64,000 nucleotides of DNA from Plantibacter flavus (GTDB lineage Bacteria; Actinomycetota; Actinomycetes; Actinomycetales; Microbacteriaceae): contig NZ_FXAP01000002.1 in the NCBI RefSeq assembly GCF_900177615.1, forward strand, positions 186,001 to 250,000. Direction: 5' to 3'. A program made the position numbers and the translations under genes. Below the pieces are notes generated by a model. It ran no database searches, was not told the DNA's origin, and saw nothing but the letters and a program-made list of their open reading frames with translations. Numbering within the stretch: the stretch's first letter is position 1; each line of letters opens with the position of its first letter. Shown piece by piece: positions 7,385-64,000 of the stretch.

Positions 7385-7441
7385 GGTGACTCCTCTGACT
7401 CATCGTTGAGCGGACCGGTCGGGTCCGGCGGTGCATGGGAG

Positions 7442-7469
7442 GTTTTCGAAACTATCGAAACGCCTTTCG
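7442..7469. promoter_or_regulatory. Putative LacI-family operators at the start of the sugar operon
   Basis: Two adjacent dyads: GTTTTCGAAAC (7442-7452, core TTTCGAAA perfectly palindromic) and CGAAACGCCTTTCG (7456-7469, an inverted repeat with 4-nt centre). They overlap the expected transcription start of the binding-protein operon, immediately downstream of its -10 box. This is a repressing position. The TTTCG/CGAAA half-site recurs in front of the regulator gene. Confidence 0.65.
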
Positions 7470-7472
7470 GTA

Positions 7473-7501
7473 AAGCTAGCCTGGGATCGGTGTAGCGTCA
7501 A
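7473..7501 (-). promoter_or_regulatory. Promoter of the sugar ABC/GH127 operon
   Basis: On the minus strand, a -35 TTGACG (7496-7501) and a -10 TAGCTT (7473-7478) are separated by exactly 17 bp. Transcription would start near 7466, about 80 nt before the binding-protein start codon. Confidence 0.7.
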
Positions 7502-7517
7502 GAGCGAAGTCCGGTAA

Positions 7518-7530
7518 CGTTTCGGAAACG
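7518..7530. promoter_or_regulatory. Putative autoregulatory LacI operator
   Basis: The 13-bp perfect dyad CGTTTCGGAAACG (centre base G) lies 13 bp before the LacI gene start, overlapping a candidate -10 TAACGT at 7515-7520. It shares half-sites with the operators at 7442-7469, so one regulator probably binds both. Confidence 0.6.
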
Positions 7531-7543
7531 AAGAGGGGGAGCA

Positions 7544-8590: not shown

Positions 8591-8660
8591 GGTCCGGTCG
8601 GACGCCGATACTCACCGCGCGGGTGATGCGACAGCCGTCGGACATCGCTACGGTCGAGCC

Positions 8661-8930
8661 ATGGACAGCTCAACCGTCATCATGATCGTGGTCCTCGCCG
8701 CCGTCGTGGTCATCGTCTTCACGATCACCGTGCAGGCCAGACGACGTGCCGGCGGGTCGAAGCATCGCGGGGGTACGACTTCGGACTCCGGAATGCCGTT
8801 CATCGTCGATGGCGACAGCCACCACGGCGGAAGCGACTCCGGCGGAAGCGACTCCGGCGGTTGGGACGGTGGCAGCAGCGGCGACTCCGGCGGCGGAGGA
8901 GACGGGGGCGGCGGGGGCGGCGGCGACTGA
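8661..8930 (+). CDS. Small single-pass membrane protein with Gly/Ser/Asp-rich tail
   Basis: An 89-residue protein of no recognised family. One N-terminal transmembrane helix (VIMIVVLAAVVVIVFTI, residues ~5-21) is followed by a basic stretch and a hydrophilic, Gly/Ser/Asp/His-rich C-terminus that ends in a run of glycines. The start is supported by a -10 box TACGGT (8649-8654) exactly 6 nt before the ATG, which predicts a leaderless mRNA. No functional clue from its neighbours. Confidence 0.6.
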   Translation: MDSSTVIMIVVLAAVVVIVFTITVQARRRAGGSKHRGGTTSDSGMPFIVDGDSHHGGSDSGGSDSGGWDGGSSGDSGGGGDGGGGGGGD

Positions 8931-8947
8931 GCGCCCGACGCCCTGCG

Positions 8948-9364
8948 TCACGTCTCGGCGCGCTCACCCTCCCGCAGCTGCTGGAGCACTCGGCGATTGA
9001 GGACGAGGTTGCCGACACCGCTGGCACAGAGGATGACGGCGAAGACCAGCCCAGTCCAGTCCTGACGCAGGATCGCGAACGCCGCGAGCCCGATCGTGCC
9101 GACGACCAGGACGCTGCCGAGCACCCGACCCACGGCAAGGCGACGGAGCTGTTGCCGCCGGGTCGGTGTGGCATCAGGAGGCCACGTCTCCGCCCAGGAT
9201 CGACGATACGTCGCGACGACGCCGGTTGCGAAGACGATGGACGCGGCCACAAGGACCAGCGCTCCAAGGATGCTCCACGGCGGGGAGGCGATGAGTACCC
9301 CGCCGAACACGGCGACCGCGACGGCGGCGACGATCACGCACCATCCGGCCACCCGCGGGGTCAC
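8948..9364 (-). CDS. Four-helix membrane protein, apparently out of frame with its natural start
   Basis: The intact frame gives 138 residues from GTG (VTPRVAGWC) with about four transmembrane helices. The only good ribosome site (GGGAGGAATC followed by ATG at 9427-9429) opens a different frame of 22 codons (MMTRQQSDRRRR...), whose TGA overlaps this GTG. Between them lies a 14-bp tandem duplication (9375-9410). Removing one 14-bp copy joins the ATG in frame with the membrane protein. The gene is therefore either frameshifted, phase-variable, or expressed by GTGA re-initiation. Family unknown. Confidence 0.6.
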   Translation of the reverse strand: MTPRVAGWCVIVAAVAVAVFGGVLIASPPWSILGALVLVAASIVFATGVVATYRRSWAETWPPDATPTRRQQLRRLAVGRVLGSVLVVGTIGLAAFAILRQDWTGLVFAVILCASGVGNLVLNRRVLQQLREGERAET

Positions 9365-9374
9365 CTGTCGCCGA

Positions 9375-9410
9375 CCGATCCGGCGCCGCCGATCCGGCGC
9401 CGCCGATCCG
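9375..9410. repeat. 14-bp tandem repeat at the N-terminus of the membrane-protein gene
   Basis: On the minus strand the unit CGGATCGGCGGCGC occurs twice in tandem, followed by the first eight bases of a third copy. Fourteen is not divisible by three, so gain or loss of one unit switches the reading frame. Confidence 0.9.
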
Positions 9411-9536
9411 ACTGTTGCCTGGTCATCATGATTCCTCCCAGGAGCAGTCTGGCCGTTGCACCACGTTCTCCCAAGCCCCCTTCTCGGAGCAGCTGACGTG
9501 TCGACACCATCACGCGCCGATTGAGACACTGGGCAG

Positions 9537-10220
9537 GTGTACTCCGAGCGCGTCCTCCTCTCCGGCGAGGCCCTGTGGCGCTCGGAAGGCAGCGTGGGCG
9601 GGGCGGTCGTCCCGGCCGACGGCTGTGTCGACCTGATCCTCCGCGACGGCCGGGTCGAGGTTGCCGGACCGTCGACACGGTGGCTCGCCACCGGTCCCGA
9701 CGGGGCCGCCGGGTCGTTCGGATTCAGGATGCAGCCGGGGCGGGCCGGTCTCCTGCTCGGCCTCGATCTCGCAGCGATCGCGGACCAGCTCGTACCGCTC
9801 GACGACGTCGCCGATCGGCGGACCGCGGCACGGCTGCGCGAGGCGATGACCCCGCTCGAAGCCGGACCCGCCCCGATCGGCACGCTCGCGGCGTTCTCGG
9901 CCCAGCTGGCCGAAGCGAGTCCCTGGTCGGACGCCGTCCGCCGATCGGCGTCCGAGGCGACGTCGGCGCGTGACGTCGCCGCGACGCTGAGCGGCTCCGA
10001 ACGGTCCTTCCGGCGGCGGATGCTCGCCACCTTCGGATACGGCTACGCCACGCTCGTGCGCCTCGATCGCGCGCACCGTGCTCGATCATCACTCCGCTCG
10101 GGCTCATCGATCGCCGACGTCGCCGCATCGGCGGGCTATGCCGACCAACCCCACCTCTCCCGCGAGTTCAGGCGTCTCGTCGGCTCGAGCCCCGCTCAGT
10201 TCGCGGCGAGCGCGGCGTAG
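9537..10220 (+). CDS. AraC-family transcriptional regulator
   Basis: A 227-residue regulator starting at GTG (MYSERVLLSG when initiated). The N-terminal ~110 residues form a small sensing domain (PADGCVDLILRDG). The C-terminus is an AraC double helix-turn-helix ending with the conserved GYADQPHLSREFRRL and SSPAQF. A weak -10-like GACACT lies 6 nt before the GTG. It converges with the VOC-protein gene, and the two 3' ends overlap by 25 bp. Target unknown; the overlapping VOC gene is a candidate. Confidence 0.88.
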   Translation: MYSERVLLSGEALWRSEGSVGGAVVPADGCVDLILRDGRVEVAGPSTRWLATGPDGAAGSFGFRMQPGRAGLLLGLDLAAIADQLVPLDDVADRRTAARLREAMTPLEAGPAPIGTLAAFSAQLAEASPWSDAVRRSASEATSARDVAATLSGSERSFRRRMLATFGYGYATLVRLDRAHRARSSLRSGSSIADVAASAGYADQPHLSREFRRLVGSSPAQFAASAA

Positions 10221-10594
10221 AGGTCGACCGAGTTCCCGTCCGGGTCGAGGAGGGTCGCGTACCGCTGTCCCCACACGGCATCCCAGGGCTCGACGTGCCC
10301 GGCGTATCCGGCATCGACGAGCGTGGCGAAGGTGGCGTCGACGGCAGCCGGACTCCCCTGGTCGAAGGCGAGGGCGATCCGGTGGCCGCCGGACGCCGGA
10401 ACGAAGGTCGGGTCGAAACCGCGGATCGTCTCGACCGTGTCCCATGCGAGCGCCACCCCTCCGTCCAGGAGTGCATCCACGTGGGGAGCGTCGTCCTGAC
10501 CGGGCTCGATGGGCACGCCCAGGGCCCGGTAGAAGGCGAGTGAGGCCGCCATGTCGTTCGTCACGATGCCGATGAAGCCGAGTCTCAGTGTCAT
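10196..10594 (-). CDS. VOC-superfamily (glyoxalase/bleomycin-resistance fold) protein
   Basis: A 132-residue single VOC module pair (betaalphabetabetabeta twice): GFIGIVTNDMAASLAFYRAL at the N-terminus and YATLLDPDGNSVDLYAAL at the C-terminus, the standard metal-binding fold. Substrate cannot be deduced. The start is fixed by -10 TACGGT (10601-10606), 6 nt before the ATG. The last 25 bp overlap the AraC gene on the other strand. Confidence 0.85.
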   Translation of the reverse strand: MTLRLGFIGIVTNDMAASLAFYRALGVPIEPGQDDAPHVDALLDGGVALAWDTVETIRGFDPTFVPASGGHRIALAFDQGSPAAVDATFATLVDAGYAGHVEPWDAVWGQRYATLLDPDGNSVDLYAALAAN

Positions 10595-10677
10595 GGTCTC
10601 ACCGTACGACCGGGCGCCGACGGGGTCGTGAACAGAACGGCCACGCTGCGCGCGCGACCGGTTCCCGGTCTGCTCGG

Positions 10678-11244
10678 TCAGCGACCCGCCAGGTCGCCGA
10701 GTCGGGCGCGCATCGCGCGAAGCACGTCGACGAGGAGCACGTCGTCCGGTCCGGCGAGCCACTGCTCGAGGGAGGCGTCGAAGAGTGCCGAACCGATGGA
10801 CGCGGCGAGCGCCGCGTCGGCTGATGTGACACCACTCTCCATGAGGCCATCGCGCATCGCGTCGGTGAGGACCGCCGACTTCAGCCGTTCCCGCTCGCGC
10901 AGCTGCGGTTCGGACCGGATGACTGCGCGGCGGGCTGCGATGTCGTCCCGCCAGCGCTGCAGCTCACCGGCGGCCACGGTCTCGAGGCCGGACATCACCA
11001 GCGCGAGCGGGTCGAGTCCTGGTGGCGCAGCAGAGACCAGCCGCCCGACCACGGTCGGGAGCTCGCGCTCGCGGAGGAAGAGCACGTCACGCTTGTCGGC
11101 GAAGTGACGGAAGAACGTTCGGGTGGTGAGCCCGGCGGCTTCGGCGATCTCCGGGACCGTCGTCGCCGTGAAGCCCCGCTCGGCGAAGAGCGCCATCGCA
11201 GCGCTCTCGAGTCGGAGAGCGGCGTCGGGTGCCCAGCGTGCCAT
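10678..11244 (-). CDS. TetR/AcrR-family transcriptional repressor
   Basis: A 188-residue repressor. Residues ~10-55 are the TetR DNA-binding domain ([20 protein letters not shown], then [18 protein letters not shown]). The remainder is the helical ligand domain. A -10 TATCCT (11251-11256) sits 6 nt before the ATG, predicting a leaderless transcript. Divergent from an MDR-family oxidoreductase; two copies of a 17-bp dyad in the shared region are the probable binding sites. Likely represses both genes in the absence of a toxic or xenobiotic ligand. Confidence 0.92.
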
Positions 11245-52339: not shown

Positions 52340-53212
52340 TTACCGCTCGATCTTGTCGAGGTGGAGCATGGCGGCGAGGTTCTTGTCGAGCTCGTCGTCC
52401 TGGAAGACCTTCTTCCAGTCGTCCTTGATGATCGCGCTGCGGCCGTAGTCCATCGCGATGAGGCACGCGTCGGAGAACGGGTTGTCGCCCTTGAGCGAGT
52501 TCGCGAGGGCGACCTGCGTGTGGCCGAGGAGGATCGCACGAGCGGCCGGCTCCGGCACGCCCATGGTGTTGACGGCCTCGTCGAGCGACTCCTTGAGGAG
52601 CGCACCGATCATGCAGGCGATCGTCTCCACGAGGGTCGGCTCGAGCTGCGCGAGCTGCTTGACCGTGACCCAGTGGACCTCGCCGACAGGGGCGAAGATC
52701 GCCCGGACGACGGCCTCGACCTGCGCCTGCTTCTCAGCGTCGTCGGACTCGATCGCCGCGATGGCGTCCTGGAGGGCGGCGATGCCACCGAAGGTGTCCG
52801 CGTACTCCTCGGGCGTGTGGCGCTCGACGAAGACGGAGGGGTGGCAGGGGTGCGTGACGGCCTGGATGACGTCGTCGCGACGCGTCAGCAGACCCGCGTA
52901 CGCGGCGGCCGGGTCGAGCGTGAGGAGCACGGCGCCCGACTTCATGAGCGGGACGACGCCGGCGGACACGGCCTTCAGAGCGAGGTCCGGGACGGCGAGG
53001 ATGACGACGTCGGCGTCGGTGACGGCCGCGTCGGTCTCGGTGAGCTCGCGACCGGCCTCGGTCACGCGCTCCTGGCCGGCGGGCGAGACCTCGCTGTAGA
53101 AGACGTTGTGGCTGGTCTTCACGAGGTTGTTGGAGACGCGCATGCCCATCTTGCCGCCCGCGCCGATGACGGCGATGGTGAGCTGGTCCGCGACGGTGGT
53201 GGTGTCGGTCAT
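52340..53212 (-). CDS. apnO: D-apionate oxidoisomerase (ApnO-like)
   Basis: A 290-residue NAD(P)-dependent enzyme. N-terminal Rossmann motif VIGAGGKMGMRVSNNL near 15-30, then a helical phosphogluconate-dehydrogenase-like C-terminal domain (TVKQLAQLEPTLVETIACM, MGVPEPAARAILLGHTQVAL). This domain pair is typical of ApnO, which converts D-apionate to 3-oxo-isoapionate. ATG with AAGGAAG upstream overlaps the OiaC stop (ATGA). Ends the overlapping six-gene operon. An ordinary 3-hydroxyacid dehydrogenase is the alternative. Confidence 0.83.
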   Translation of the reverse strand: MTDTTTVADQLTIAVIGAGGKMGMRVSNNLVKTSHNVFYSEVSPAGQERVTEAGRELTETDAAVTDADVVILAVPDLALKAVSAGVVPLMKSGAVLLTLDPAAAYAGLLTRRDDVIQAVTHPCHPSVFVERHTPEEYADTFGGIAALQDAIAAIESDDAEKQAQVEAVVRAIFAPVGEVHWVTVKQLAQLEPTLVETIACMIGALLKESLDEAVNTMGVPEPAARAILLGHTQVALANSLKGDNPFSDACLIAMDYGRSAIIKDDWKKVFQDDELDKNLAAMLHLDKIER

Positions 53213-54006
53213 GATCTTCCTTCTCTCAGGTACTGCAGGTTGTGTGCGGTCCACGTGCGCTCGAGCTCGATCGTCTCCGTGATGGAGTCGCCGAGCGGGA
53301 GCCAGTGTTCGATGATCTGGTTGACACCGCGCTCGTCCGGTCGGACGACGGCGGTGAGGGCGGGGTAGTCGAGCAGGCCGGTGCCGAGCGGGGCACCTTC
53401 GAGGGTGAAACCGACCCAGCCGCCCCGGCGGGTGAACGCGAAGTCCTTGACATGGATGTTCCGGACGTACGGAGCTGTGCGCTCGATGACGTCCGCCGGG
53501 TGCTCGAGCCGCGCCACGGTGTTGGCCGGGTCGAGACAGATGCCGAGGTTCGGGTGGTCGACGGTGGTCACGAGGTCGACGAGCTCCTGCGACGACAGCT
53601 GCTCGTAGGTCTCGAGTGCGATCGTGACGCCGGCCGCCTCGAACGCCGGGAGCACCGCGCGGAGTCGATCCACGGCGTCGGCGTGGGACGGCCGGTCGTC
53701 GCCGGACGTGGCCATGCTGCGGAGGAGCTTCGCGCCCAGCACGGTGGCGATGTGGAGGAAGCGTTCGAGGTGCGCGACCGCGATCCCCTTCGTCCCGAGT
53801 TCGAGGGTGACCCCGCGCTCGCGGGCGACCTCGGCGATCCGGCGCAGCTCATCGTCGGACATCGACTCGATGCGGGCGTCGTCGCAGATCTGGAAGAGCT
53901 CGACGCCGGCGTCGGCCGTGCGCTCGAGCATGCCGATGACGCTCAAGCGCTCGGGTGCGAGCTCGGAGCCCTCCCAGAAGAAGGTGTAGGTGCCGAAGCC
54001 GATCAT
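53209..54006 (-). CDS. oiaC: 3-oxo-isoapionate decarboxylase (OiaC-like, TIM-barrel)
   Basis: A 265-residue sugar-phosphate isomerase/epimerase-fold protein. Metal-binding set E132 (ALETYEQ), D159 (LDPANT), H185 (IHVKD) and E233 (IIEHW) is intact. In the non-phosphorylated apionate route OiaC decarboxylates 3-oxo-isoapionate to L-erythrulose, and the following LerK/LerI/DerI genes are exactly those needed to use L-erythrulose. Overlaps both neighbours by ATGA. By sequence alone it could be another xylose-isomerase-like enzyme; context drives the call. Confidence 0.8.
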
Positions 54007-54857
54007 GCTGTCCTCGGTCCCTGAGCCTGTCGAAGGGTGCCATCCTGAGCCTGTCGAAGGGTGCCATCCTGAGCCTGTCGAAGGGCCTCGTCGAGCACTG
54101 CCTCGAGCGCCGCCACGTCGTGGGCGAAGCGTCCGAGGAACACGCCGTCGACGTCGTCACCGAGGGCGGTCAGCAGACCGGGACCCGCACTGCCGCCGTA
54201 GATGACCGAGCTGCCGACCCGGTCGGGCCGCTCGGCGATCGACTGCTTCAGGATCGCGCCGACGGCTCGCACGTACTCGGCAGACGCGGGTTCAGCCGCA
54301 CCGATCGCCCACACGGGCTCGTAGGCGACGATCACCGGTCCGGCCACGGCATCGGCGAGCGCGGAGTCCAGCTGGCGCACGCACTCCGTCGCAGCCGCCT
54401 CGGGCGTCGTGCGCTCGACCTCGCCGATGCAGAGGACCGGCGAGAGGCCGTTGCGGAGGGCCGCGGCGGTCTTCTCGGCGACGACCTCGTCGGTCTCGCC
54501 GAAGAGGGAGCGGCGCTCCGCGTGGCCGACCTCGACCACGGCGACGCCGACCTCGGCGAGCTCGGGGCCGCCGACCTCACCGGTGAACGCGCCACGGTCC
54601 GCGCTCGCGAGGTCCTGTGCTCCGACCAGCACGCCCGTCCCGGCGAGGGCCGCCACCGACGGCGCGACCGCGAGGTAACCGGGGATGACGAACAGTCGCA
54701 CGCGACCATCGACCACGGCCTCGTGCCGACGGGCCAAGGCGCCCACCTGCTCGATCCACTCGAGGGTCTGCGCGTGGCCGAAGTACATCTTCAGGCTCAC
54801 GCCGACCACGCGGGGCGCGGTCGACGTGGGCACGGCCGACGGGGACGGGGTGGTCAT
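54003..54857 (-). CDS. lerI: Triose-phosphate-isomerase-like L-erythrulose-1-phosphate isomerase (LerI-like)
   Basis: A 284-residue TIM barrel with catalytic residues Lys23 (VSLKMYF), His112 (VGHAERR) and Glu180 (AYEPVWAIG), and GGSAG phosphate loop near 221. Housekeeping TPI usually starts AGNWKMN, which is absent here (SLKMY), and gene context favours LerI. The last ~27 residues (LRQAQDGT repeated, then [10 protein letters not shown]) are encoded by three direct units of the CTTCGACA repeat family at 54013-54086, an added tail not part of the barrel. Overlaps DerI by one base. Confidence 0.82.
54013..54086. repeat. CTTCGACA-family repeats inside the lerI 3' end
   Basis: Three units of CCTGAGCCTGTCGAAGGG with a 24-bp period, in frame with lerI on the minus strand, encode its C-terminal tail. 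They end just before the OiaC start. Confidence 0.9.
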
Positions 54858-55327
54858 CAGCAGGAGCCCGTCGCCTCGTATTCACCGATGACGGCGACCT
54901 TCTCGGCACTCGCGCTGGTCTCGTCGAAGCGGTAGGTGAGCCACTCGCGGACGAGGCGGCGGGCGAGCTCGATGCCGATGACGCGCTGGCCCATCGTCAG
55001 GACCTGCGCGTTGTTGCTGAGGACACCGCGCTCGACCGAGAAGCTGTCGTGTGCCGTCACGGCGCGGATGCCGGCGACCTTGTTGGCGGCGATCGCGACG
55101 CCCAGGCCGGTGCCGCAGAAGAGGAGCGCGCGGTCGGCCTGGCCGGACGCGACGAGCTCGGCTGCGGCGATCGCGACCCGCGGGTAGGCGGTGTGCCCGT
55201 CGGCGTCCACGCCCACGTCGACGAGCGAGGCGACGCCGTCGTGCTGCTCGAGGTCGCGCTTGACGATCTCCTTGTAGTCGAACCCGGCGTCATCCGAGCC
55301 GATGACGATGCGCAGCTGATCAGTCAT
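54857..55327 (-). CDS. derI: RpiB-family D-erythrulose-4-phosphate isomerase (DerI-like)
   Basis: A 156-residue RpiB/LacAB-family sugar-phosphate isomerase: [10 protein letters not shown] near 11-20, active-site Cys71 in [16 protein letters not shown] and [17 protein letters not shown]. In erythrulose catabolism DerI interconverts D-erythrulose 4-phosphate and D-erythrose 4-phosphate. Context (LerI, LerK) favours this over ribose-5-phosphate isomerase. Start overlaps the LerK stop (ATGA), the end overlaps lerI by one base. Confidence 0.83.
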
Positions 55328-57108
55328 GCGTGTACTCCTTCGTTGGTGGTGGTGCTGGTGGAGCGGTCCGGTGCGGTGGTGCCGCCGGCGCGCTCGAGGA
55401 CGGGGACGATCGCCGTGACGATCAGGCCGAACGAGTGCGCACCGGCGTCGACCGTACCGAGACTCTTCTCGGCGTGCGGACGGGCGCGGCCCATCTTCGG
55501 CAGGAGGTCCGCGGTCTCGGCGGCAGCGGTGGAGGCAGCCGCAGCGGCGGTCGTCCAGGCGGTGACGAGGTCGGCACCGTCGGCGACGGCTGCGCTCAGG
55601 GTGGTGGTGAACGGCACGAGCGCGTCGACCATCGTCTTCTGCCCGACCTCGGCCTTGCCGAACGACATGATGCCGTCGACCGCGGCCTGCACGCCGGTCG
55701 CGACGTCGGTGCGGCCTGGTGCGACCTCGTCGCCGAGGGCGGTTCCGACCGAGCGGAGCGCGAGGCCCCACAGAGCGCCGGACGTGCCGCCGGCGCGGTC
55801 CGCCCAGGCGTCGCCGGCCAGGTGCAGGACGGTGTGGGCACCGGCCCCGGCATCGGCGGCGGCGTGCGCGGCGGTGACGGCGGCACGAGCACCGCGCTGC
55901 ATGCCGATGCCGTGGTCGCCGTCACCCGCGACGGCGTCGATCCGGCCTAGCTCCTCGACGTTCGTGTCGATGACCTGGACGAGCGCGTCGAGGGCTTCGA
56001 CCACGACCGCGGCGGCGGCCCGTGACACGTCGGTGGACTCGGGGATCTCGGCAGCCGTCTCGGCGACGAGCTCCGAGGGGTCGAGCTGCTCGGCCGCTGC
56101 GACGACGCCCTTGCGGTAGGCGGGGGTGTCGGCACCGGCAGCCCAGAAGCCCTCGAGCTCCTCGTCCAACCAGAAGAGCGTGAGCGAGACGCCGGCCATG
56201 TCGAAGCTCGTGACGAGCTCGCCGACCTCGGGATCGACGATCTCCACCCCGGCGGCCTCGAGCTGCGCGGCGACCGCACGGTAGACGACGAACAGTTCCT
56301 CGTACTTCACCGAGCCGAGCCCGTTGAGGATGACGCCGACGCGAGCGCCCGCGGCCTCGGAGACACCCTCGGGCAGTTCCGCGAGCAGCGAGGAGACGAG
56401 CAGGGTGGCGAGTTCATCGGCCGTCGGCACGTCGGTCTCGTCGATGCCGGGCTCGCCGTGGATGCCCATGCCGACCGCCATTCGCCCCTCGGGCACGGTG
56501 AACAGCGGCTCGGTCGCGCCCGGCAGGGTGCAGCCGCTGAACGCGACACCGAAGGACCGGGTGCGCTCGTTCGCGTGGGTGGCGACGCGGACGACCTCGT
56601 CGAGGTCGTAGCCCGCCTCGGCCGCAGCGGCGGCCGACTTGAAGACGGTGAGGTCGCCCGCGATACCGCGACGCTTGTGCTGCTCGGCGAGGGGCGCGCT
56701 CGAGATGTCGTCGGTGACGGCGACGCTGCGGGTGGGGATGCCCGCAGCGTTCAGCGCGTCCTGCGCCTGGGTGAAGTGGAGCACGTCGCCCGCGTAGTTG
56801 CCGTAGCTGAGGAGGACGCCGCCCCCGCGCTGCGCCGCCTTCGCGACAGACTCGACCTGGTGGGCGGACGGCGAGGCGAACAGGTTGCCCATCGCCGCAC
56901 CGTGCGCGAGGCCCTGGCCGACGATGCCGCCGAACGCCGGGTAGTGGCCGGAGCCACCGCCGATGACGAGCGCGACCGTGCCCTCGGGCGTCCGGGTGCT
57001 CCGGACGACGCCGCCGGTCACGCGCCGGACCTGGTTGCGGTTCGCGGCGACGAAGCCGTCGATCATCTCGTCGGCGAAGTCCGCCGGGTCGTTGAACAGG
57101 CGCGTCAT
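55324..57108 (-). CDS. lerK: L-erythrulose 1-kinase (LerK-like DhaK-DhaL fusion)
   Basis: A 594-residue dihydroxyacetone-kinase-family ATP-dependent enzyme with both domains in one chain. DhaK domain has [12 protein letters not shown] (50-61) and the substrate-linking His217 in GMGIHGEPG. DhaL domain has the metal-binding [13 protein letters not shown] (~391-403). Dihydroxyacetone kinases and LerK are the same family; with DerI, LerI and OiaC next door, L-erythrulose is the likely substrate. Stop overlaps DerI, start overlaps the MFS stop (ATGA). A Thr/Ser-rich C-terminal tail is present. Confidence 0.86.
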
Positions 57109-58484
57109 CGGGTCTTACCCGTGAGGTCGTCGTGCGAGACGCGCAGCTCGCGAGAGCTCCGCTGCTTCGAGAGGATCACCATGAGCGTCGCGGAGATCAT
57201 CATGAAGCCACCGACGATGAACATCGGGACGACGTACTGCGGGGTGTCGCCGACCTTGGTGAGGTCCGCGACGGCACCCGTGATGTACGGCGCCGAGAAC
57301 CCGGCGAGGTTGCCGACCGTGTTGATGAGTGCGATACCCGCGGCAGCCGCCGCACCGGTGAGGAACTGCGTGGGCAGCGTCCAGAAGTTGGGCAGCGCGG
57401 CGAAGATCGCCATGGCGGTGACCGCGATGATCGCGATGGTGAGGGCGGGCGAGTTGGCGAAGAGCGCGAGCGGGATGCTCACGGCACCGACGATCGCGGG
57501 GATCACGATGTGCCAGGTCTTCAGGCCACGGCGCGTCGCGTCACGAGACCAGAAGTACAGGGCGATGGCGGCCGGCACGTACGGGATCGCCGTGATGAGG
57601 CCCTTCTGCATGACGTTGAACTCGGTCCCGAACGTCTCCTGGAAGCCCTCGATGATCGTGGGGAGGAAGAAGCCGAGCGCGTAGAGGCCGTAGATGAAGC
57701 CGAAGTAGATGAACGCGAGCATCCAGACGCGACCGCTCGTGAACGCGTGCTTGAGGCTGACGTGGCCCTGCTTCTGCTCGGTGGTGGCCTTCTCGTGTGC
57801 GAGGGCCGCCGTGAGCCAGACCTGCTCCTCGGTGGTGAGCCACTTGGCGTCCGCGGGGCGGTCCTTCAGGTAGAACCAGGCGATGACACCGATGAGGATG
57901 GCCGGGAGTCCGACGCCGAGGAACATGAAGCGCCAGCCCTCGAGGCCGAAGAACACGCCGTGCTGGCCGATGAGCCACCCGGCGAGGGGAGCGCCGATGA
58001 CGGTGGTGAGCGGCTGCGCCAGGTAGAAGAGGGCGAGGATCTTGCTGCGGTGCTTGGCCGGGACCCAGAGGCTCAGGAAGAGGATCGCGCCGGGGAAGAA
58101 GCCGGCTTCGGCGACACCGAGCACGAAGCGGAGGATCGCGAGCTGTTCGAAGTTGGCGACCCAGGTGAACAGGACCGCGACGATGCCCCAGGTGACCATG
58201 ATGCGGGCGAGCCAGCGACGGGCACCGAACTTGTTGAGCGCGAGGTTGCTGGGCACCTCGAGCAGGATGTAGCCGATGAAGAAGACGCCGGACGCGAAGC
58301 CGAACTGGGCGGCGGAGAGCGCGAGGTCCTCGTTCATGCCGTTGGGGGCGGCGAAGCCGATCGCGGTGCGGTCCAGGTAGTTGATGAAGAACATCAGCGC
58401 CACGAACGGCACGAGACGGATCGAGACCTTCCGGATGGCTGATCGCTCGACAGCCGGATTGGCCGCGGGGGCGGTGGTGTCCAC
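57105..58484 (-). CDS. MFS transporter (anion:cation symporter-like) of the apionate locus
   Basis: A 459-residue twelve-helix MFS protein of the ACS type: MFFINYLDRTAIGFAAP after a short basic N-terminus, loop 2-3 NKFGARRWLARIM, and the family's YGLYALGFFLP block. Such carriers take up organic or sugar acids with a proton, fitting apionate or apionolactone. GTG at 58484 is chosen since GGAGTCATA directly precedes it and it yields VDTTAPAANP; upstream in-frame starts lie in the promoter region. First gene of the six-gene overlapping operon. Confidence 0.86.
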   Translation of the reverse strand: MDTTAPAANPAVERSAIRKVSIRLVPFVALMFFINYLDRTAIGFAAPNGMNEDLALSAAQFGFASGVFFIGYILLEVPSNLALNKFGARRWLARIMVTWGIVAVLFTWVANFEQLAILRFVLGVAEAGFFPGAILFLSLWVPAKHRSKILALFYLAQPLTTVIGAPLAGWLIGQHGVFFGLEGWRFMFLGVGLPAILIGVIAWFYLKDRPADAKWLTTEEQVWLTAALAHEKATTEQKQGHVSLKHAFTSGRVWMLAFIYFGFIYGLYALGFFLPTIIEGFQETFGTEFNVMQKGLITAIPYVPAAIALYFWSRDATRRGLKTWHIVIPAIVGAVSIPLALFANSPALTIAIIAVTAMAIFAALPNFWTLPTQFLTGAAAAAGIALINTVGNLAGFSAPYITGAVADLTKVGDTPQYVVPMFIVGGFMMISATLMVILSKQRSSRELRVSHDDLTGKTR

Positions 58485-58550
58485 TATGACTCCTCGGGTG
58501 GGCGGCATCGATGCCGCGGGCAGGGCGTGGTCCGGGCCGGACCGGAATGA

Positions 58551-58579
58551 ACGATACATCAACCGGTTGACCAATTCAA
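58551..58579 (-). promoter_or_regulatory. Promoter with embedded operator for the apionate operon
   Basis: On the minus strand, -35 TTGAAT (58574-58579) and -10 TATCGT (58551-58556) are separated by exactly 17 bp. The spacer contains TCAACCGGTTGA, a perfect 12-bp palindrome (58559-58570), which is an ideal repression site. Confidence 0.8.
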
Positions 58580-58599
58580 GCATCGCTAGCCCCCGAGCC

Positions 58600-58668
58600 C
58601 CCCGGTCCCTGAAGCACCCCTCCCGGTCCCTGAAGCACCCCTCCCGGTCCCTGAGCTTGTCGAAGGGC
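58600..58668. repeat. GGTCCCTGAG-type repeat ahead of the FCD regulator
   Basis: Three direct units (CCCGGTCCCTGAAGCACCCC twice, then CCGGTCCCTGAGCTTGTCG) lie between the operon promoter and the regulator start. Member of the CTTCGACA repeat family. Confidence 0.8.
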
Positions 58669-58685
58669 CGCGATACAGTGAACCC

Positions 58686-59423
58686 ATGCCTGCGTTCCCG
58701 GATCGGCCGACCGACGACATCTCGTCCAGCCTCGGACCGGTCGCGGTGGGATCAGCCGTCTCCGCCGTCGCGAAGCGTCTGCTCGACCACTTCACGAGCG
58801 GTGAGATCGCCCCGGGGACCCGACTCCCACCGGAACGTCAGCTCGCCGCGTCCCTCGGCATCGGGCGCTCAGCCGTCCGCGAGGCACTCGCGGCGCTCGA
58901 GATCCTCGGCGTCGTCGACGTCCGCCCAGGCAGCGGCACCTACCTCCGCGGCAGTGTCTCCGAGCTCCTCCCCGAGACGCTCAGCTGGGGCCTCATGCTG
59001 GGCGAACCACGGACCCGCGAACTCATCGAGGTGCGCGGGCAGCTCGAGGTCTTCGCCGCCGGCCTCGCTGCAACGCGTATGGACGACATGGCACGCAACC
59101 GGCTCCGCAACCACCTCACCGCGATGAGCGAGGCGGGTGCCAATCGCACCAAGTTCATCGAGGCCGACCTCAAGTTCCATCTGGAGCTCGCCTCGGCCAC
59201 CGGGAACCGCGTACTCTCCGACCTCCTGCAGAGCATCCGCTCGCTCCTCCGCATCTGGGTGGAGCGCGGTATCCACGAGGACGTCGACGCCCAGCGCGCC
59301 TTCGAGGAGCACGAGGCCGTCTACGAGGCGATCATGTCGGGCGACCCGGCCGCCGCGACGACCGCGATGCAGCACCACATGGACACCGCGACCGAGCGCC
59401 TGAACCGCACCCTCACGGCGTAG
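58686..59423 (+). CDS. GntR-family regulator, FadR/FCD type
   Basis: A 245-residue regulator: winged helix near residues 20-90 (ASLGIGRSAVREALAALEIL) and an all-helical FCD effector domain with metal-coordinating pattern (EADLKFHLELA, EEHEAVYEAI, MQHHMD). Divergent from the apionate operon, separated by repeat DNA and a promoter with a palindrome. TACAGT (58674-58679) lies 6 nt before the ATG, so the message is likely leaderless. Probable repressor of both apionate units, with a pathway intermediate as inducer. Confidence 0.9.
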   Translation: MPAFPDRPTDDISSSLGPVAVGSAVSAVAKRLLDHFTSGEIAPGTRLPPERQLAASLGIGRSAVREALAALEILGVVDVRPGSGTYLRGSVSELLPETLSWGLMLGEPRTRELIEVRGQLEVFAAGLAATRMDDMARNRLRNHLTAMSEAGANRTKFIEADLKFHLELASATGNRVLSDLLQSIRSLLRIWVERGIHEDVDAQRAFEEHEAVYEAIMSGDPAAATTAMQHHMDTATERLNRTLTA

Positions 59424-59690
59424 GGCCTCCGGCCTGCGCGAGAGCAGGATGAACGCACGAGGACCGGACGACCCGCTCGCGCTGGCTTCGCGCACTCGCG
59501 GGCGTAAGACCCGCCGCTCGACAGTCCGCCGCTGTTGCATCGCGCGCTGGTGGCACGGCGGGCGGCCAATCGACCATCCGACAGCCGACCTAGCCGCGGG
59601 ATTGCGAGCTCCCGCGCCTCTCCGCTCAAACTCACTCAGTTTAAATATAAGTTGTGCGCCTGTAAAACTTTAATGCTAGTATTTGTGACC
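59424..59690. other. Non-coding junction with AT-rich promoter
   Basis: No convincing gene. The first half is GC-rich with no clear dyads. From 59630 the composition drops sharply to A/T (TTTAAATATAAG, then TGTAAAACTTTAATG). A promoter is likely here: TTGTGC at 59652-59657, then an extended -10 TGCTAGTAT at 59674-59682, 19 bp apart. This AT-rich step marks the left limit of the chorismatase gene group. Confidence 0.6.
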
Positions 59691-59725
59691 TGCGGGCGAC
59701 TGCCCGCAAGTCGAGGGCACTCGAC
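59691..59725 (+). promoter_or_regulatory. Two tandem hairpins in the leader of the chorismatase operon
   Basis: TGCGGGC and GCCCGCA (59691-59697 and 59702-59708) form a 7-bp stem with GACT loop; GTCGAG and CTCGAC (59710-59715 and 59720-59725) form a 6-bp stem with GGCA loop. They lie between the putative promoter and the ribosome site GGAGGA (59743-59748). Structures could regulate or stabilise the leader. Confidence 0.55.
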
Positions 59726-59751
59726 GCTCGCTTGACCATTCCGGAGGAATC

Positions 59752-60720
59752 TTGCAGACGTTCGTCGCACCCATGTTCTCGATCGATGAGGGTTCACTTC
59801 CGAGTGAGATCATCGGAGTTTCACCCCTGGCTCGGATCTATTACGGCCAGACCGAGGCGGGGCCACGTGTGATCGACGGCGTCCTAGAGCTCCCGGTACA
59901 CATGGTCACTGATGGCACCGCCGGATTCATCGAGACATGGCACGCCACGGGCAATGTCACCGTTGTCATTCGGGGCTCTGTCGCCGTTGCCCACGATGGC
60001 CAGCAACTCGTCTGCGCCGGATTCGTGCCGCGTCACGGCCGCTGGGCAGATGCGATCCGCCAGGCGTACGCGCAGGGTATCGCACTGGCCGATGAGCTTG
60101 GATACGCCAACATCTTCCGCATGTGGAACATGATTGGCCACATCAACGAGACGAACCAGGACGGGCTTGAGGTCTATCGCGACTTCTGCGTGGGGCGCGC
60201 TGAAGCGTTCGATGTTCGCAAGATGATCGATGGTGTGCCTTCAGCGACCGGGATCGGATCACGTGGTGACGGCATCAGCTTCTACTTTCTCGCGACACGC
60301 TCGGGGCGAATCACAAACCTGGAGAACCCCAACCAGGTTCCGGCGTTCGAATATCCGGATGACTACGGTCCACGACCACCATCCTTCGCTCGCGCATCGA
60401 CGATCGATGGCGCCGACAAGCTTTTCATCTCAGGGACGGCGAGCATACTCGGGCACCGCACCATGCACGTCGGCAACATTGAGAAGCAACTTGAGACCAC
60501 CCGCGACAACCTCCAGGCGCTCCTGCGCGCCAGCGAAGATGATGAGCGTGGTTGGCAACTGGAGCACGTGAAGGTCTATGTGCGTCACAGCCGCGACCTT
60601 GAGACGGTGCGCAGGTTCGTTGAGCAGAACCTTCCGACACCCACACCGCCCGTCTACATGAACGTGGCGATCTGTCGGAGCGACCTGCTCGTCGAGATCG
60701 AGGGGGTGGCCAGAAGATGA
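59752..60720 (+). CDS. Chorismatase (FkbO/Hyg5/XanB2-family chorismate hydrolase)
   Basis: A 322-residue protein from a TTG start (MQTFVAP) with GGAGGAAT four bases upstream. Family blocks: FRMWNMIGHINETNQDGLEV (122-141), YRDFCVGRAEAF, GIGSRGDGISFYFLA (~167-181), and ENPNQVPAFEYPDDYGPR (191-208). Chorismatases release pyruvate from chorismate and leave either a dihydroxycyclohexadiene-carboxylate (FkbO type) or 3-hydroxybenzoate (Hyg5 type). Which one is not clear from sequence; the hydroxybenzoate hydroxylase-like gene downstream favours 3-hydroxybenzoate. First gene of a four-gene overlapping operon. Confidence 0.9.
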   Translation: MQTFVAPMFSIDEGSLPSEIIGVSPLARIYYGQTEAGPRVIDGVLELPVHMVTDGTAGFIETWHATGNVTVVIRGSVAVAHDGQQLVCAGFVPRHGRWADAIRQAYAQGIALADELGYANIFRMWNMIGHINETNQDGLEVYRDFCVGRAEAFDVRKMIDGVPSATGIGSRGDGISFYFLATRSGRITNLENPNQVPAFEYPDDYGPRPPSFARASTIDGADKLFISGTASILGHRTMHVGNIEKQLETTRDNLQALLRASEDDERGWQLEHVKVYVRHSRDLETVRRFVEQNLPTPTPPVYMNVAICRSDLLVEIEGVARR

Positions 60721-61595
60721 CGGCTCCCCAAATCCACGGCTCAGTGCCCGCCCTGGTCACGCCGTTCGACGGAGACTCATGGTCGCGCGACGCGCTGGAG
60801 TCCCTCATCGACTGGCACATCGCCGAGGGGAGCTCGGCGCTCGTTGTGTGCGGCACGACTGGCGAGAGCACGACGCTCACCGAGAATGAGCAGATCGACG
60901 TCATCGCGGCCGCCGTCCAAGCGGCGAACGGGAGAATCCCGATCATCGCCGGCGCCGGATCGAATTCCTCAACGACGTCCATCGAGCTAACACGTGCGGC
61001 CGAAGCCGTCGGAGCGGACGCCACGCTCCACGTCGCTGGTTACTACAACCGACCCAACAGCGGCCAGCTCATCGCCCACTTCCACGCGGTGGCAGACTGC
61101 GCGGAGCGGCCTGTCCTGCTCTACGACATCCCGCAGCGAACGGGCGTCGCGCTGTCGGTGTCCGATGTCCTCGAGATCTGCGCTCACGACAACATCGTCG
61201 GCATCAAGGACTCAACAGGTGATCTGGGGCGCCTCACCGCGGAGCGGTTGGGCACGGAGACTCCCCTGAGCTTTCTGTCGGGAGACGACTTCTCCGCGCT
61301 TTCCTACCTCGCCTCAGGTGGCCACGGATGGGTCTCCGTCGTAGCCAACGTCGCCCCCCGACTCTGCGCGTCCCTGGTGGCGGCGGTCACATCTGGTGAC
61401 CTGATCGACGCACGTCGTATCAACGATCTGCTGCATCCGCTGTCGCTCGCACTGATGCTCGATCCGAACCCGGCTGGCCCAAAGTACGCGCTCTCCTGTG
61501 CGGCCCGGTGCAGCACGGAGGTGCGGGCTCCACTCACTCCGGCGTCGCCGGAGACCAGACGGCGCATCGACGAAGCACTGGCAGCTATCTCGTGA
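60717..61595 (+). CDS. DapA-family (dihydrodipicolinate synthase/N-acetylneuraminate lyase) enzyme
   Basis: A 292-residue TIM-barrel aldolase. Schiff-base Lys164 (GIKDST), Tyr136 and Arg141 (YDIPQRTG) and the GTTGES loop (46-51) match functional dihydrodipicolinate synthases, which condense pyruvate with an aldehyde. Since chorismatase liberates pyruvate, both could share that metabolite; it could equally be a redundant lysine-pathway paralogue or an arylidene-pyruvate aldolase. ATGA overlap with the chorismatase gene and GTGA overlap with the aminotransferase gene. Confidence 0.88.
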   Translation: MTAPQIHGSVPALVTPFDGDSWSRDALESLIDWHIAEGSSALVVCGTTGESTTLTENEQIDVIAAAVQAANGRIPIIAGAGSNSSTTSIELTRAAEAVGADATLHVAGYYNRPNSGQLIAHFHAVADCAERPVLLYDIPQRTGVALSVSDVLEICAHDNIVGIKDSTGDLGRLTAERLGTETPLSFLSGDDFSALSYLASGGHGWVSVVANVAPRLCASLVAAVTSGDLIDARRINDLLHPLSLALMLDPNPAGPKYALSCAARCSTEVRAPLTPASPETRRRIDEALAAIS

Positions 61596-62830
61596 TCTCT
61601 ACCTCTCTCAAGCTCTCCGAGAATGCTGCTCTGCGATCACTGGGCACCCACCCGTTTCAACACCTCGCCGCTCTCCTCGACGGGATAGACCCTCCATCTG
61701 CGCTGACACCTATCGATCTGACGATCGGCGAGCCCACCTCAAGACCGCCCGAGTGGACAGCAGCTGCACTATCGGAGGACTCGGCGTCATTCGGCACGTA
61801 TCCACCGAACGGCGGCCCCGCGTGGTTCAACGATGCGGTCATCGACTGGGCTGAGCGGCGCTTCGGCATCCCTCGGCAAGCTATGGACCGCGCCGCAGTG
61901 GTCCCGACGGCCGGAGCCCGCGAAGCACTCTTCCAGCTGGCATTGGCAGTTGAAGGGCCGCGAAGTGGGCGGGACCTCGTGGTGATGCCCACGCCCCACT
62001 ACGCACCGTACCGCGCCGCTGCGGCATTTCCTGGATTCTCCGTGTTGCCGCTGGCAGCCGACGCGTCGAATGGGAATCTTCCCACTCCCGACATGCTGCC
62101 TGTCGGGGTCGCCCAACGAGTCGCCCTCACATACCTGTGCTCGCCGAGCAACCCTGAGGGGGCGGTCGCTGACAAGCAGCGACTCGGCCGTGCAATCGAA
62201 CACGCGAGGCGACACGGATATTTGCTTGTCGTCGACGAGTGCTACAGCGAAATCTACCGCAATGAGCCTCCGACAAGCGCCCTCGCTGTCGCTGCGGGTC
62301 TCGCTGCGGCCCCGAGCGAGGATTTGTTCCGCAACGTGGTGGTCGTGAACTCGCTGTCTAAGCGGTCTAGTGCAGCCGGTCTGCGAGTCGGGTGGGTCGC
62401 CGGCGACCGGCATATCGTTGACAGCCTCGTACGTGCGCGTTCGTACATCGGTGGCTCTACCCCATTGCCTAATCTGCGGGCCGCCGCGCGACTGTACACA
62501 GACGAGGGGCACGTCGAACGGATTCGCCAGGGATATTGCGACGCGTTCGACGCTTCGGACTCCGTCCTTCAAGACGTCGAGGGCTACAGATCTCCGGCTG
62601 CCGGAATGTTCCTCTGGCACCAAGTCGGGGACGGTGAGACGGTGGCACGACGTGCGTGGCGCGACGCCGGCGTGCGACTGGTACCCGGGGAGTATCTTGG
62701 GCCGGCCGGGCATGACGGCCGCCACCCTGGGCGCTCGCACGTTCGTCTGGCGATGGCCTGTCCCCGCCCGCTCATCGAAGAAGCGCTTGATCGACTCCAT
62801 CCGATTCTCCAGGATGAGGGAAGAGCGTGA
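61592..62830 (+). CDS. Class I/II PLP-dependent aminotransferase (DapC-like)
   Basis: A 412-residue fold-type I aminotransferase: PLP Lys257 in NSLSKRSSAAGLRVGW, Asp215/Tyr218 in VVDECYSEIY and Asn187 in CSPSNPEG. The active-site Arg near the C-terminus is in SHVRLAM. It resembles succinyldiaminopimelate aminotransferases. GTG start overlaps the DapA-like stop (GTGA). It would aminate a keto acid, perhaps the product of the preceding lyase. Codon usage is A/T-richer than genes left of 59 kb. Confidence 0.88.
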   Translation: MISTSLKLSENAALRSLGTHPFQHLAALLDGIDPPSALTPIDLTIGEPTSRPPEWTAAALSEDSASFGTYPPNGGPAWFNDAVIDWAERRFGIPRQAMDRAAVVPTAGAREALFQLALAVEGPRSGRDLVVMPTPHYAPYRAAAAFPGFSVLPLAADASNGNLPTPDMLPVGVAQRVALTYLCSPSNPEGAVADKQRLGRAIEHARRHGYLLVVDECYSEIYRNEPPTSALAVAAGLAAAPSEDLFRNVVVVNSLSKRSSAAGLRVGWVAGDRHIVDSLVRARSYIGGSTPLPNLRAAARLYTDEGHVERIRQGYCDAFDASDSVLQDVEGYRSPAAGMFLWHQVGDGETVARRAWRDAGVRLVPGEYLGPAGHDGRHPGRSHVRLAMACPRPLIEEALDRLHPILQDEGRA

Positions 62831-64000
62831 GCTCCGCAGAACGTCAGGGGGCGTTCATCATCGTGGGCGGCGGCATCGCCGGGCTTGCTAGTGCTCTGGC
62901 CCTCGCACCGCACGCCTCATCAGTGACTGTGCTCGAGCGCAACTCCCGCTTCCAAGAGGTCGGAGCGGGAATACAGTTGAGCCCGAACGCTTTCGCAGCA
63001 TTGGATGAGCTCGGCGTGAAAGAAGCTGTACTCACTCGCTCGATTCGTGTCCAGCGACTTACGGTGCTAGACGCTCAATCGGGCGGCACCCTCGTGGACT
63101 TTCCTCTGGACGATCGTTTCGAGGCCCAGTTCGGGCATCCGTACGCCGTCGTCCATCGAGGCGCATTGCACCGAACACTGCTCGATGCGTGCCGCCGATT
63201 AGCCACGATCCGGCTCATCACGAACGCCAACGTCAATGGCCTCACCGAGCACGACGACTCGATCACCGCCAACCTCGCCGACGGCCGTGTTTTCGTCGGT
63301 GACGTGCTAATCGGCGCTGACGGACTCAATTCTTCGGTACGGGCCCAGGTGGTCGGAGACGGAGCACCGGAACCTGCCGGCCATGTTGTGTATCGCGCGG
63401 TTATCTCGGCGGAGCAGTTCCCTGCAGATCTGCCAGCACGATCCTCGATCCTCTGGGCAGGCCCGGATATGCACGTCGTGCACTACCCGCTCGCTGACGG
63501 CAAGTCATTCAACCTCGTCGCGACTAGGGTCGAGCCGGTAAACGAGATGTTCGCCAACCGCGGGATCCAGGCTGCGTGGGTGAGGAGCGCATTCGCAAGC
63601 GTGGCGCCTCCGCTCCGGCGCCTGCTCGACGCGCCGGCCCATTGGCGAGCGTGGTCGATCGCGGACCGGGCGCCGGTGCACACTTGGCATCGCGGACGTG
63701 CCGTGCTCATGGGGGACGCCGCGCACCCAATGCTGCAATACGCCGCCCAGGGTGCGTGCCAGGCCATCGAGGATGCGGTGATTTTCGCTCGACTCGTGGG
63801 GGCCGTCGGCGCGAACGACGCAGTCGCGTCGCTAGGCCCTGCTCGAGCTGGCCGTACTGCGCGCGTGCAGCAGACCGCGCGCTGGCTGGGCGACGCGATC
63901 TACCACCCGGCCGGCGTACCGCGTCGCGCCCGGGACGTGATGCTCAAGAGCCTCGACCACGCGAAGCTCACAGCGTCCCTCCAGTGGCTGTACGCCTGGA
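62827..64000 (+). CDS. FAD-dependent aromatic monooxygenase, 3-hydroxybenzoate 6-hydroxylase-like (3' end beyond window)
   Basis: 391 codons before the window edge. GTG start overlaps the aminotransferase stop (GTGA). Flavin-binding GGGIAG (14-19), GADGLNSSVR (163-172) and the GDAAHPMLQYAAQGA block (296-310) are those of group A flavin hydroxylases. Similarity to 3-hydroxybenzoate 6-hydroxylases (LSPNAFAALDELGV, YAVVHRGALHRTLLDAC) is clear by eye. It would convert 3-hydroxybenzoate to gentisate, thus linking with the chorismatase product. The C-terminal part is missing from this window. Confidence 0.87.
   Translation, partial: MSSAERQGAFIIVGGGIAGLASALALAPHASSVTVLERNSRFQEVGAGIQLSPNAFAALDELGVKEAVLTRSIRVQRLTVLDAQSGGTLVDFPLDDRFEAQFGHPYAVVHRGALHRTLLDACRRLATIRLITNANVNGLTEHDDSITANLADGRVFVGDVLIGADGLNSSVRAQVVGDGAPEPAGHVVYRAVISAEQFPADLPARSSILWAGPDMHVVHYPLADGKSFNLVATRVEPVNEMFANRGIQAAWVRSAFASVAPPLRRLLDAPAHWRAWSIADRAPVHTWHRGRAVLMGDAAHPMLQYAAQGACQAIEDAVIFARLVGAVGANDAVASLGPARAGRTARVQQTARWLGDAIYHPAGVPRRARDVMLKSLDHAKLTASLQWLYAW

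Follow-up and report, generated by a model that had tools for sequence, protein, structure and literature searches.

A 64,000-nt stretch of the Plantibacter flavus genome (contig NZ_FXAP01000002.1, positions 186,001 to 250,000; hereafter the window) ends in a run of overlapping genes that starts with a gene for a chorismatase. An earlier note, made from the window alone, had described four genes joined by 4-nt overlaps (ATGA, GTGA, and GTGA) and had remarked that the region runs on beyond the window. Both observations held. The coordinates and overlaps were confirmed, the overlapping arrangement is genuine and more than chance, and extension of the contig (locus L003, G000:C2:244000-263000; window position = L003 position + 57999) yielded four more genes, the last of which ends at 68724. 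The operon consists of eight co-oriented genes, and the four in the window are its first half (Table 1). We propose with moderate confidence that it is a natural-product cassette, in which an aromatic ring would be made from chorismate, opened, aminated, and built into an exported small peptide.

An eight-gene operon in an acquired cassette

The gene junctions of the operon are, in order, ATGA, GTGA, GTGA, ATGA, ATGA, a gap of ∼45 nt, and GTGA, with 4-nt overlaps at six of the seven. This overlapping and co-oriented arrangement supports the view, taken earlier of the window's four genes, that they form a tightly co-expressed pathway. Family and domain models recognized no regulator among the eight operon genes, and promoter and terminator scans did no better on the sequence than on shuffled versions of it. 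No tRNA genes were found in L003, and short open reading frames (ORFs) beyond the window's end were outside the scope of these searches.

The operon lies on an inserted cassette that was probably acquired horizontally, since all six congeners (G001 to G006) have an empty site at this location, with 46-174 bp in place of the 9.3 kb of the P. flavus strain. Congener DNA could be aligned up to the stop codon of a GntR gene at window position 59423 (L003 1424; in one congener 13 bp further, at 1437), and the alignment resumed at L003 10730 (10718 in one). The spacer of the empty site holds a REP-like palindromic repeat in all six. The different base composition that had been pointed out for the region was also borne out: the GC content at third codon positions (GC3) of the eight genes is 0.69-0.79, compared to a mean of 0.886 (standard deviation 0.057, minimum 0.719) for the 49 called ORFs to the left, the lowest of which may be wrong-frame calls. 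At the cassette boundaries we found no end repeats that could name a mobile element. As a separate observation, the core of the REP-like repeat (CCCTGAGCNTGTCGAAG) occurs in 11 exact copies in the window (35340-58649) and in none in the cassette, and a flank query containing this repeat matched the own genome at 127 places and each congener at 52-95, most of those listed being the repeat.

Predicted route from chorismate to an opened ring

The product of the first gene passed the FkbO/Hyg5 model TIGR04444 (331.1 bits, cut-off 325) and is nearer to Hyg5 (5ag3, 257.6 bits) than to FkbO (212.9 bits). The accessible text of PMC7170507 gives Gly-164, Gly-231, and Cys-318 as the CH-II residues of Nat-hyg5. 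At the positions of Hyg5 173, 240, and 327 the cassette enzyme has G, G, and C, and FkbO has G, A, and A. Because 19 of the 20 aligned sequences share G and C at the last two of these positions, in an alignment drawn up with XanB2 and CH-IV outside it, the residue test sets the cassette enzyme apart from FkbO only. A chorismatase tree, which the earlier note had suggested, was built with FkbO and Hyg5, and the cassette enzyme came out on a long branch whose position was not settled. The enzyme is predicted to be of the CH-II type and to form 3-hydroxybenzoate, and the first step of the earlier scheme, from chorismate to 3-hydroxybenzoate plus pyruvate, stands as a prediction from family and the G/G/C residues.

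The second step in our scheme would be the conversion of 3-hydroxybenzoate into gentisate by the flavin adenine dinucleotide (FAD) monooxygenase. The 3-hydroxybenzoate 6-monooxygenase equivalog NF006021 was its best model by 217 bits, with a score (426.5 bits) below the cut-off of 459. Alignment with the structure 4bjy (211.4 bits) covered residues 8-397 of 413, and in this alignment the cassette enzyme keeps a Q that is E in chain 4bk2. It also has Y, H, and Q aligned with the catalytic residues of the Rhodococcus enzyme (Y105, H213, and Q301). As 3-hydroxybenzoate 6-hydroxylase is the nearest family and these residues are kept, the earlier assignment of a gentisate-forming enzyme of this type is retained.

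In the third step, the ring of gentisate would be opened to maleylpyruvate by the product of the first gene that lies wholly beyond the window. This protein scored 402.8 bits with the gentisate 1,2-dioxygenase equivalog TIGR02272 (cut-off 442.1) and 213.3 with the model for 5-aminosalicylate dioxygenase. Against 2d40 (285.9 bits), its HRHSQSALR and WHDH motifs align with HRHNQSALR and WHDH, and it thereby keeps the Fe-binding cupin motifs (HxH ... H). Since this ring-opening dioxygenase gene directly follows the monooxygenase gene, gentisate is probably not the end aromatic, as it could still appear from the window alone. The first steps of the earlier four-enzyme scheme therefore stand, while the scheme lacked the ring cleavage, the RizA-like ligase, the FemAB-like transferase, and the exporter, all of which are encoded beyond the window. 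In a search of the own genome the gentisate dioxygenase matched only itself (E≤0.001), and family and domain models recognized no maleylpyruvate isomerase or hydrolase among the eight operon genes. Overall, families and kept residues make the route from chorismate via 3-hydroxybenzoate and gentisate to maleylpyruvate a well-supported prediction.

Proposed amination, ligation, and export

The later steps we infer from the remaining genes. The nearest model for the aminotransferase was that of DapC (succinyldiaminopimelate transaminase, TIGR03538), with 300.2 bits and a cut-off of 474.6, and the structures 3jtx and 3ezs were matched with 179.4 and 155.1 bits, respectively. By its sequence, the protein belongs to the DapC lineage and is not DapC itself. 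Maleylpyruvate, (2Z)-4,6-dioxohept-2-enedioate, is a C7 2-oxo-dicarboxylate, and the intermediates of the lysine pathway are likewise C7 2-oxo-dicarboxylates. Because both pathways use such compounds, a DapC-lineage enzyme would, on chemical grounds, be a reasonable one for aminating maleylpyruvate. The product of this fourth step would be 6-amino-4-oxohept-2-enedioate (C7H9NO5, 187.048), and intramolecular addition of the amine may then close this compound to 4-oxopiperidine-2,6-dicarboxylate.

In the fifth step, the RizA-like ligase and the FemAB-like transferase, the latter possibly with aminoacyl-tRNA, would couple the C7 amino acid to one or two others, after which the MFS protein would export the small peptide. 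The nearest solved relative of the ligase is RizA (4wd3, 200.3 bits; the next structure scored 34.5). The ligase passed the LAL C-terminal domain model PF18603 (LAL_C2; 38.9 bits, cut-off 29.4), and ATP-grasp domain models remained below their cut-offs. The transferase candidate, here called the GNAT protein, matched the FemAB_like domain PF04339 (29.0, cut-off 27) and the GNAT domain PF13480 (24.5, cut-off 22), and had no NCBIfam match. Among the six relatives in a GNAT alignment, FemAB_like was matched in all six and GNAT in five (E≤0.01). One tRNA-dependent synthase gave a weak match to the protein (E 0.34). FemABX-like GNATs that use aminoacyl-tRNA in antibiotic pathways (VlmA, DhpH, DhpK, PacB, and Orf11) are described in the accessible text of PMC12945691.

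Relatives of the ligase, GNAT protein, and MFS protein tend to occur near each other in other genomes. Ligase matches (E≤1e-20) were present in 67 of 295 Streptomyces-like genomes, and among eight high-scoring ligase neighbourhoods one had GNAT, MFS, and ligase, one had GNAT and ligase, two had MFS and ligases, and four had ligases only. On a Streptomyces camelliae plasmid, a GNAT relative adjoins a ligase relative. Another Streptomyces plasmid has a GNAT match together with annotated ATP-grasp and MFS genes that do not match those of the cassette, and on a Rhizobium plasmid a partial GNAT match and an MFS match lie side by side. These observations fit the view that the three travel together, as a portable module for finishing and exporting small peptide-like products.

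Several further loci came to light on the way. Two Streptomyces-like loci (L065:5873-17326 and L066:3767-13315; gene names from reading) hold further clusters in which GNAT and RizA-like ligase genes are paired. One of them also has another ATP-grasp gene and genes resembling those for nonribosomal peptide and polyketide synthases, and the other has two oxygenase-like genes, a dehydrogenase-like gene, and an aminotransferase-like gene. On a Rhizobium lusitanum plasmid (NZ_CP050307.1, L153:10628-21839, unannotated there), GNAT and MFS relatives are followed by genes that read as aldolase-like, pyridoxal phosphate (PLP)-enzyme-like, and hydratase-like, perhaps a pseudopeptide cluster of the ketomemicin sort. 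A Yersinia frederiksenii plasmid (NZ_MT039225.1, L030:3947-11152) carries genes for an ATP-grasp protein, a diaminopimelate-decarboxylase-like protein, a DapC-like aminotransferase, a methyltransferase, and unknowns; this cluster could possibly specify another small peptide derived from the lysine pathway.

Occurrence of the gene set

We searched for the cassette proteins in genome samples at the genus, family, order, and phylum levels, which overlap. The chorismatase was present in the own genome only, both among the 7 genomes of the genus and among 335 genomes of the order (E≤1e-15) and 396 of the phylum (E≤1e-20). In the same family, one of 398 genomes had a protein over the cut-off of the chorismatase family model, and the other 16 matches (E≤0.001) were short and partial. 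The GNAT protein was likewise limited to the own genome among 199 of the same family. Chorismatases at E≤1e-15 were found in 12 of 295 Streptomyces-like genomes, and these relatives are 41-47% identical to the cassette enzyme. A search of genome contigs for another such set returned only two distant Bacteroidales loci.

The neighbourhoods of other chorismatases were then compared with the cassette. Those in the 12 Streptomyces-like genomes (12-19.5 kb) had no match to the DapA, aminotransferase, dioxygenase, GNAT, or MFS protein (E≤1e-3); a weak match to the monooxygenase (26%) was present in two, and one had three ATP-grasp matches. Of 14 plasmid records with a chorismatase, all of which were examined, four (S. 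goshikiensis and Streptomyces sp. Mg1) had ATP-grasp matches, and none had a match to the other precursor proteins, the GNAT protein, or the MFS protein. Plasmid searches with the DapA, monooxygenase, dioxygenase, and MFS proteins returned the best 12-15 matches of longer lists, and the negative plasmid result covers the plasmids that match the chorismatase. The full gene set was thus present in none of the 26 other chorismatase neighbourhoods (12 genomic and 14 plasmid; 12-25 kb examined). ATP-grasp relatives were found in five of them (one genome and four near-identical plasmid loci), so the mere proximity of a chorismatase gene to ATP-grasp ligase genes does not set the cassette apart. Plasmid loci with aminotransferase relatives, one each from Pantoea, Yersinia, and Azospirillum, had no match to the other seven proteins (E≤1e-4).

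The neighbourhood check that the earlier note had put forward therefore turned up no described cluster with this gene set among the literature and records listed, and the open-licence literature held none like it among the matches listed. Paulomycin was considered as a match and rejected, because it does not use the chorismatase and gentisate-cleavage route according to the accessible text on it. The cassette brings known families together in a combination not seen in the other neighbourhoods examined, and we class it with the small-peptide clusters that have ATP-grasp ligases.

The DapA protein and alternative products

Several points weigh against the proposed pathway. Since no second full gene set was found, the grouping of the genes has no evolutionary test. 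The monooxygenase, the dioxygenase, and the aminotransferase all score below their equivalog cut-offs, so that shifted substrates are possible, and the substrate proposed for the aminotransferase is drawn from lineage and chain length only. The six-member GNAT profile had a plain acetyltransferase (2eui, E 0.0051) as its best structure, and FemX structures matched it only at E 0.66-0.71. Finally, the DapA protein has no proven place in the scheme. Its role is the least certain part: it could combine aspartate semialdehyde with pyruvate into a second C7 unit, act on the ring-cleaved chain, or be a self-resistance copy.

The DapA protein passed the dihydrodipicolinate synthase equivalog TIGR00674 (281.1 bits, cut-off 206.15) and, in E. 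coli numbering, keeps all six catalytic residues checked (T44, T45, Y107, Y133, R138, and K161). Given these residues, aspartate semialdehyde may be its substrate, or the protein may serve in resistance; the re-use of pyruvate proposed in the earlier scheme is also possible. The lysine-site residues are changed (E84 to T and H56 to Q), as is S137 (to Q). The C4 DapA copy of the genome also lacks E84 (H) and H56 (K), so that a loss of feedback would not distinguish the cassette protein. In total the own genome has three other members of the DapA family, the closest (G000:C4:58933-59778) being 41% identical. We further compared 35 DapA proteins, namely E. coli DapA, the C4 copy, three from plasmids, and those at the 30 top-scoring places in a search of 60 genomes of the phylum. 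The cassette protein deviates at 11 positions that are common to at least 88% of these, including 112, 114, and 134. Its D at 134 is present in 4 of the 35, and its Q at 137 stands at a variable position. In E. coli DapA, positions 112, 114, 134, and 137 lie at or near the active site.

One alternative is that the DapA protein and the aminotransferase form a branch of their own, in which aspartate semialdehyde and pyruvate, some of the latter from the chorismatase, would give 4-hydroxy-tetrahydrodipicolinate; its open form would be transaminated to 4-hydroxy-2,6-diaminopimelate, which the ligase would join to the ring-cleaved C7 unit. The adjacency of the two genes, the nearness of the aminotransferase to DapC, and the retained catalytic residues of DapA, R138 included, all speak for such a branch. 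The exchange of E84 for T would also fit a feedback-free supply enzyme, a weak point given the H of the C4 copy. However, the branch would leave maleylpyruvate without an amine for the ligase, and no DapB- or DapD-like gene is present among the eight. We regard it as unlikely, though far from negligible.

A second alternative, to which we assign a similarly low probability, is that the cassette DapA confers self-resistance: the operon's own C7 compound, a 4-oxo-hept-2-enedioate, would inhibit the dihydrodipicolinate synthase of competitors, and the extra DapA would keep lysine and cell-wall synthesis of the producer going. The 4-oxo-hept-2-enedioate unit is present both in maleylpyruvate and in its aminated form. 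Judging by their titles, Turner 2005 and Boughton 2008 (cited in PMC4977564 and PMC3102117) deal with 4-oxo-2-heptenedioates as irreversible inhibitors of dihydrodipicolinate synthase, and the accessible text of PMC4977564 reports that alpha-ketopimelate inhibits the M. tuberculosis enzyme with a half-maximal inhibitory concentration of 21 μM. The kept catalytic residues, the 41% identity to the closest other copy, and the unusual residues at 112, 114, 134, and 137 would also suit a resistant enzyme. On the other hand, the same text calls earlier inhibitors of this kind weak, with 50% inhibition by the Turner compounds at 0.5-50 mM and 2-49% inhibition by diketopimelate analogues at 5 mM. In addition, the reactive lysine is unchanged, which leaves the basis of resistance unexplained, and no report of dihydrodipicolinate synthase as the self-resistance gene of a cluster was found in the open-licence literature. 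The more specific idea of a peptide-delivered antimetabolite against dihydrodipicolinate synthase, combining an aminated 4-oxo-hept-2-enedioate, a carrier peptide made by the RizA-like ligase, an MFS exporter, and built-in self-resistance through DapA, is tentative and if anything a little more doubtful.

A product that keeps its aromatic ring, because the substrate of the monooxygenase or of the dioxygenase-like cupin has shifted, is improbable. The scores of both proteins, being below the equivalog cut-offs, would allow for this, whereas the kept metal-binding and catalytic motifs and the same pair order as in a catabolic operon argue for ring cleavage. Ordinary gentisate catabolism with hitch-hiking genes, to which the catabolic type of the monooxygenase and dioxygenase could point, is very improbable and was rejected as the purpose of the operon, given the chorismate start, the lack among the eight genes of a maleylpyruvate isomerase or hydrolase and of a recognized uptake gene, the lack of a second gentisate dioxygenase in the genome, and the presence of a peptide ligase and an efflux-type MFS protein.

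Implications of the proposed pathway

If the proposed pathway of ring synthesis, cleavage, amination, and ligation is true, the cassette would make a non-proteinogenic C7 amino diacid in an unusual way, via chorismate-derived gentisate and a dioxygenase of catabolic type. Ring cleavage is mostly known from degradation, and would here be a biosynthetic step. At 9.3 kb, with eight genes and no megasynthase, the cassette is short enough to be tested as a whole. We also infer that small clusters of this sort, with ligases only, may escape cluster finders geared to large assembly lines. A resistance role of the DapA gene, if true, would mark dihydrodipicolinate synthase, a bacterial enzyme not known to have a counterpart in animals, as the target of the product. 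Should the antimetabolite idea be true, the operon would specify a natural inhibitor acting at the lysine/diaminopimelate branch point, one whose own resistance gene led to its discovery.

Features and surroundings of the cassette

The coordinates of the cassette features are collected in Table 1. To its left, the genes at 52340-59423 resemble a sugar/polyol catabolic operon, with names read from translations only (dihydroxyacetone-kinase-like, RpiB-like, triosephosphate-isomerase-like, sugar isomerase-like, MFS, and GntR), and one congener (G003) has two copies of the MFS-GntR end of this operon, ∼17 kb apart. A large ORF that reads as polyketide-synthase-like lies ∼22 kb to the right of the cassette (G000:C2:277208-280987, L102:15209-18988).

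Table 1. Features of the cassette in window coordinates; positions past 64,000 are window equivalents of L003 positions.
Feature	Window position	L003 position	Strand	Remark
Cassette leader, 328 bp	59424..59751		+	AT-rich stretch, no gene assigned, directly after GntR stop
Chorismatase, FkbO/Hyg5 family	59752-60720		+	TTG start after GGAGGA
DapA/dihydrodipicolinate synthase-type class I aldolase	60717-61595		+	
PLP aminotransferase, DapC lineage, divergent	61592-62830		+	
FAD monooxygenase, 3-hydroxybenzoate 6-hydroxylase type	62827-64068		+	Last 68 nt lie beyond the window
Gentisate 1,2-dioxygenase (predicted)	64065-65114	6066-7115	+	
FemAB-like/GNAT transferase	65111-66226	7112-8227	+	
RizA-like ATP-grasp ligase	∼66272-67510	∼8273-9511	+	Start uncertain
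MFS exporter, predicted	67507-68724	9508-10725	+	

Comparison with known systems

The cassette shares parts with several described systems. Like the Hyg5-type (CH-II) chorismatases, such as Hyg5 and Nat-hyg5, its first enzyme passes TIGR04444 and has the three CH-II residues, whereas its neighbourhood differs, since the loci of the relatives have no relatives of the DapA, aminotransferase, or dioxygenase proteins (none in 12 genomic and none in 14 plasmid loci). Partly similar gene content is found in the locus L094 and on the plasmids of S. goshikiensis and Streptomyces sp. Mg1, where a chorismatase gene lies within ∼10 kb of ATP-grasp relatives (24-30% identity). The four near-identical plasmid loci also have annotated GNAT and MFS genes, as does the cassette, but these do not match the cassette proteins (E≤1e-3), and there is no match to its DapA, aminotransferase, monooxygenase, or dioxygenase. 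On the plasmids, the genes after the chorismatase gene encode an AMP-binding enzyme and a tyrosine 2,3-aminomutase, and a gene for an enediyne chromoprotein is close by. These plasmids (L156-L159, annotated) and L094:6239-19342 (by reading) also carry genes for serine acetyltransferase and cysteine synthase.

A catabolic operon on an Azospirillum argentinense plasmid has adjacent monooxygenase and gentisate dioxygenase genes in the same order as the cassette. That operon has its own isomerase and hydrolase genes after the pair and ATP-binding cassette transporter genes before it, whereas the cassette has none of these and would be fed by chorismate. The FemABX-like GNATs VlmA, DhpH, DhpK, PacB, and Orf11 resemble the cassette GNAT protein, whose FemAB_like and GNAT Pfam domains are above cut-off; they differ in that the cassette protein has no significant FemX structure match, its use of tRNA being only putative.

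The RizA-like ligase links the cassette to the ATP-grasp ligase clusters for rhizocticin (RizA) and the phosphonoalamides (PnaB and PnaC). In phosphonoalamide synthesis, according to the accessible text of PMC11867202, the head amino acid is the product of a PLP aminotransferase and is coupled by ATP-grasp ligases. In contrast to these clusters, no phosphonate gene was recognized among the eight genes of the cassette, and the predicted source of its head group is an aromatic ring that has been cleaved. The first three enzyme types of the cassette have been shown to work together in an engineered E. coli pathway from chorismate to maleate, which uses hyg5, 3-hydroxybenzoate 6-hydroxylase, and gentisate dioxygenase plus maleylpyruvate hydrolase, and whose authors state that aromatic-degrading microbes are unable to make gentisate from sugars themselves (accessible text of PMC5658364). 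That pathway is man-made and ends with the hydrolase, whereas the cassette is natural and continues with an aminotransferase, a ligase, and an exporter.

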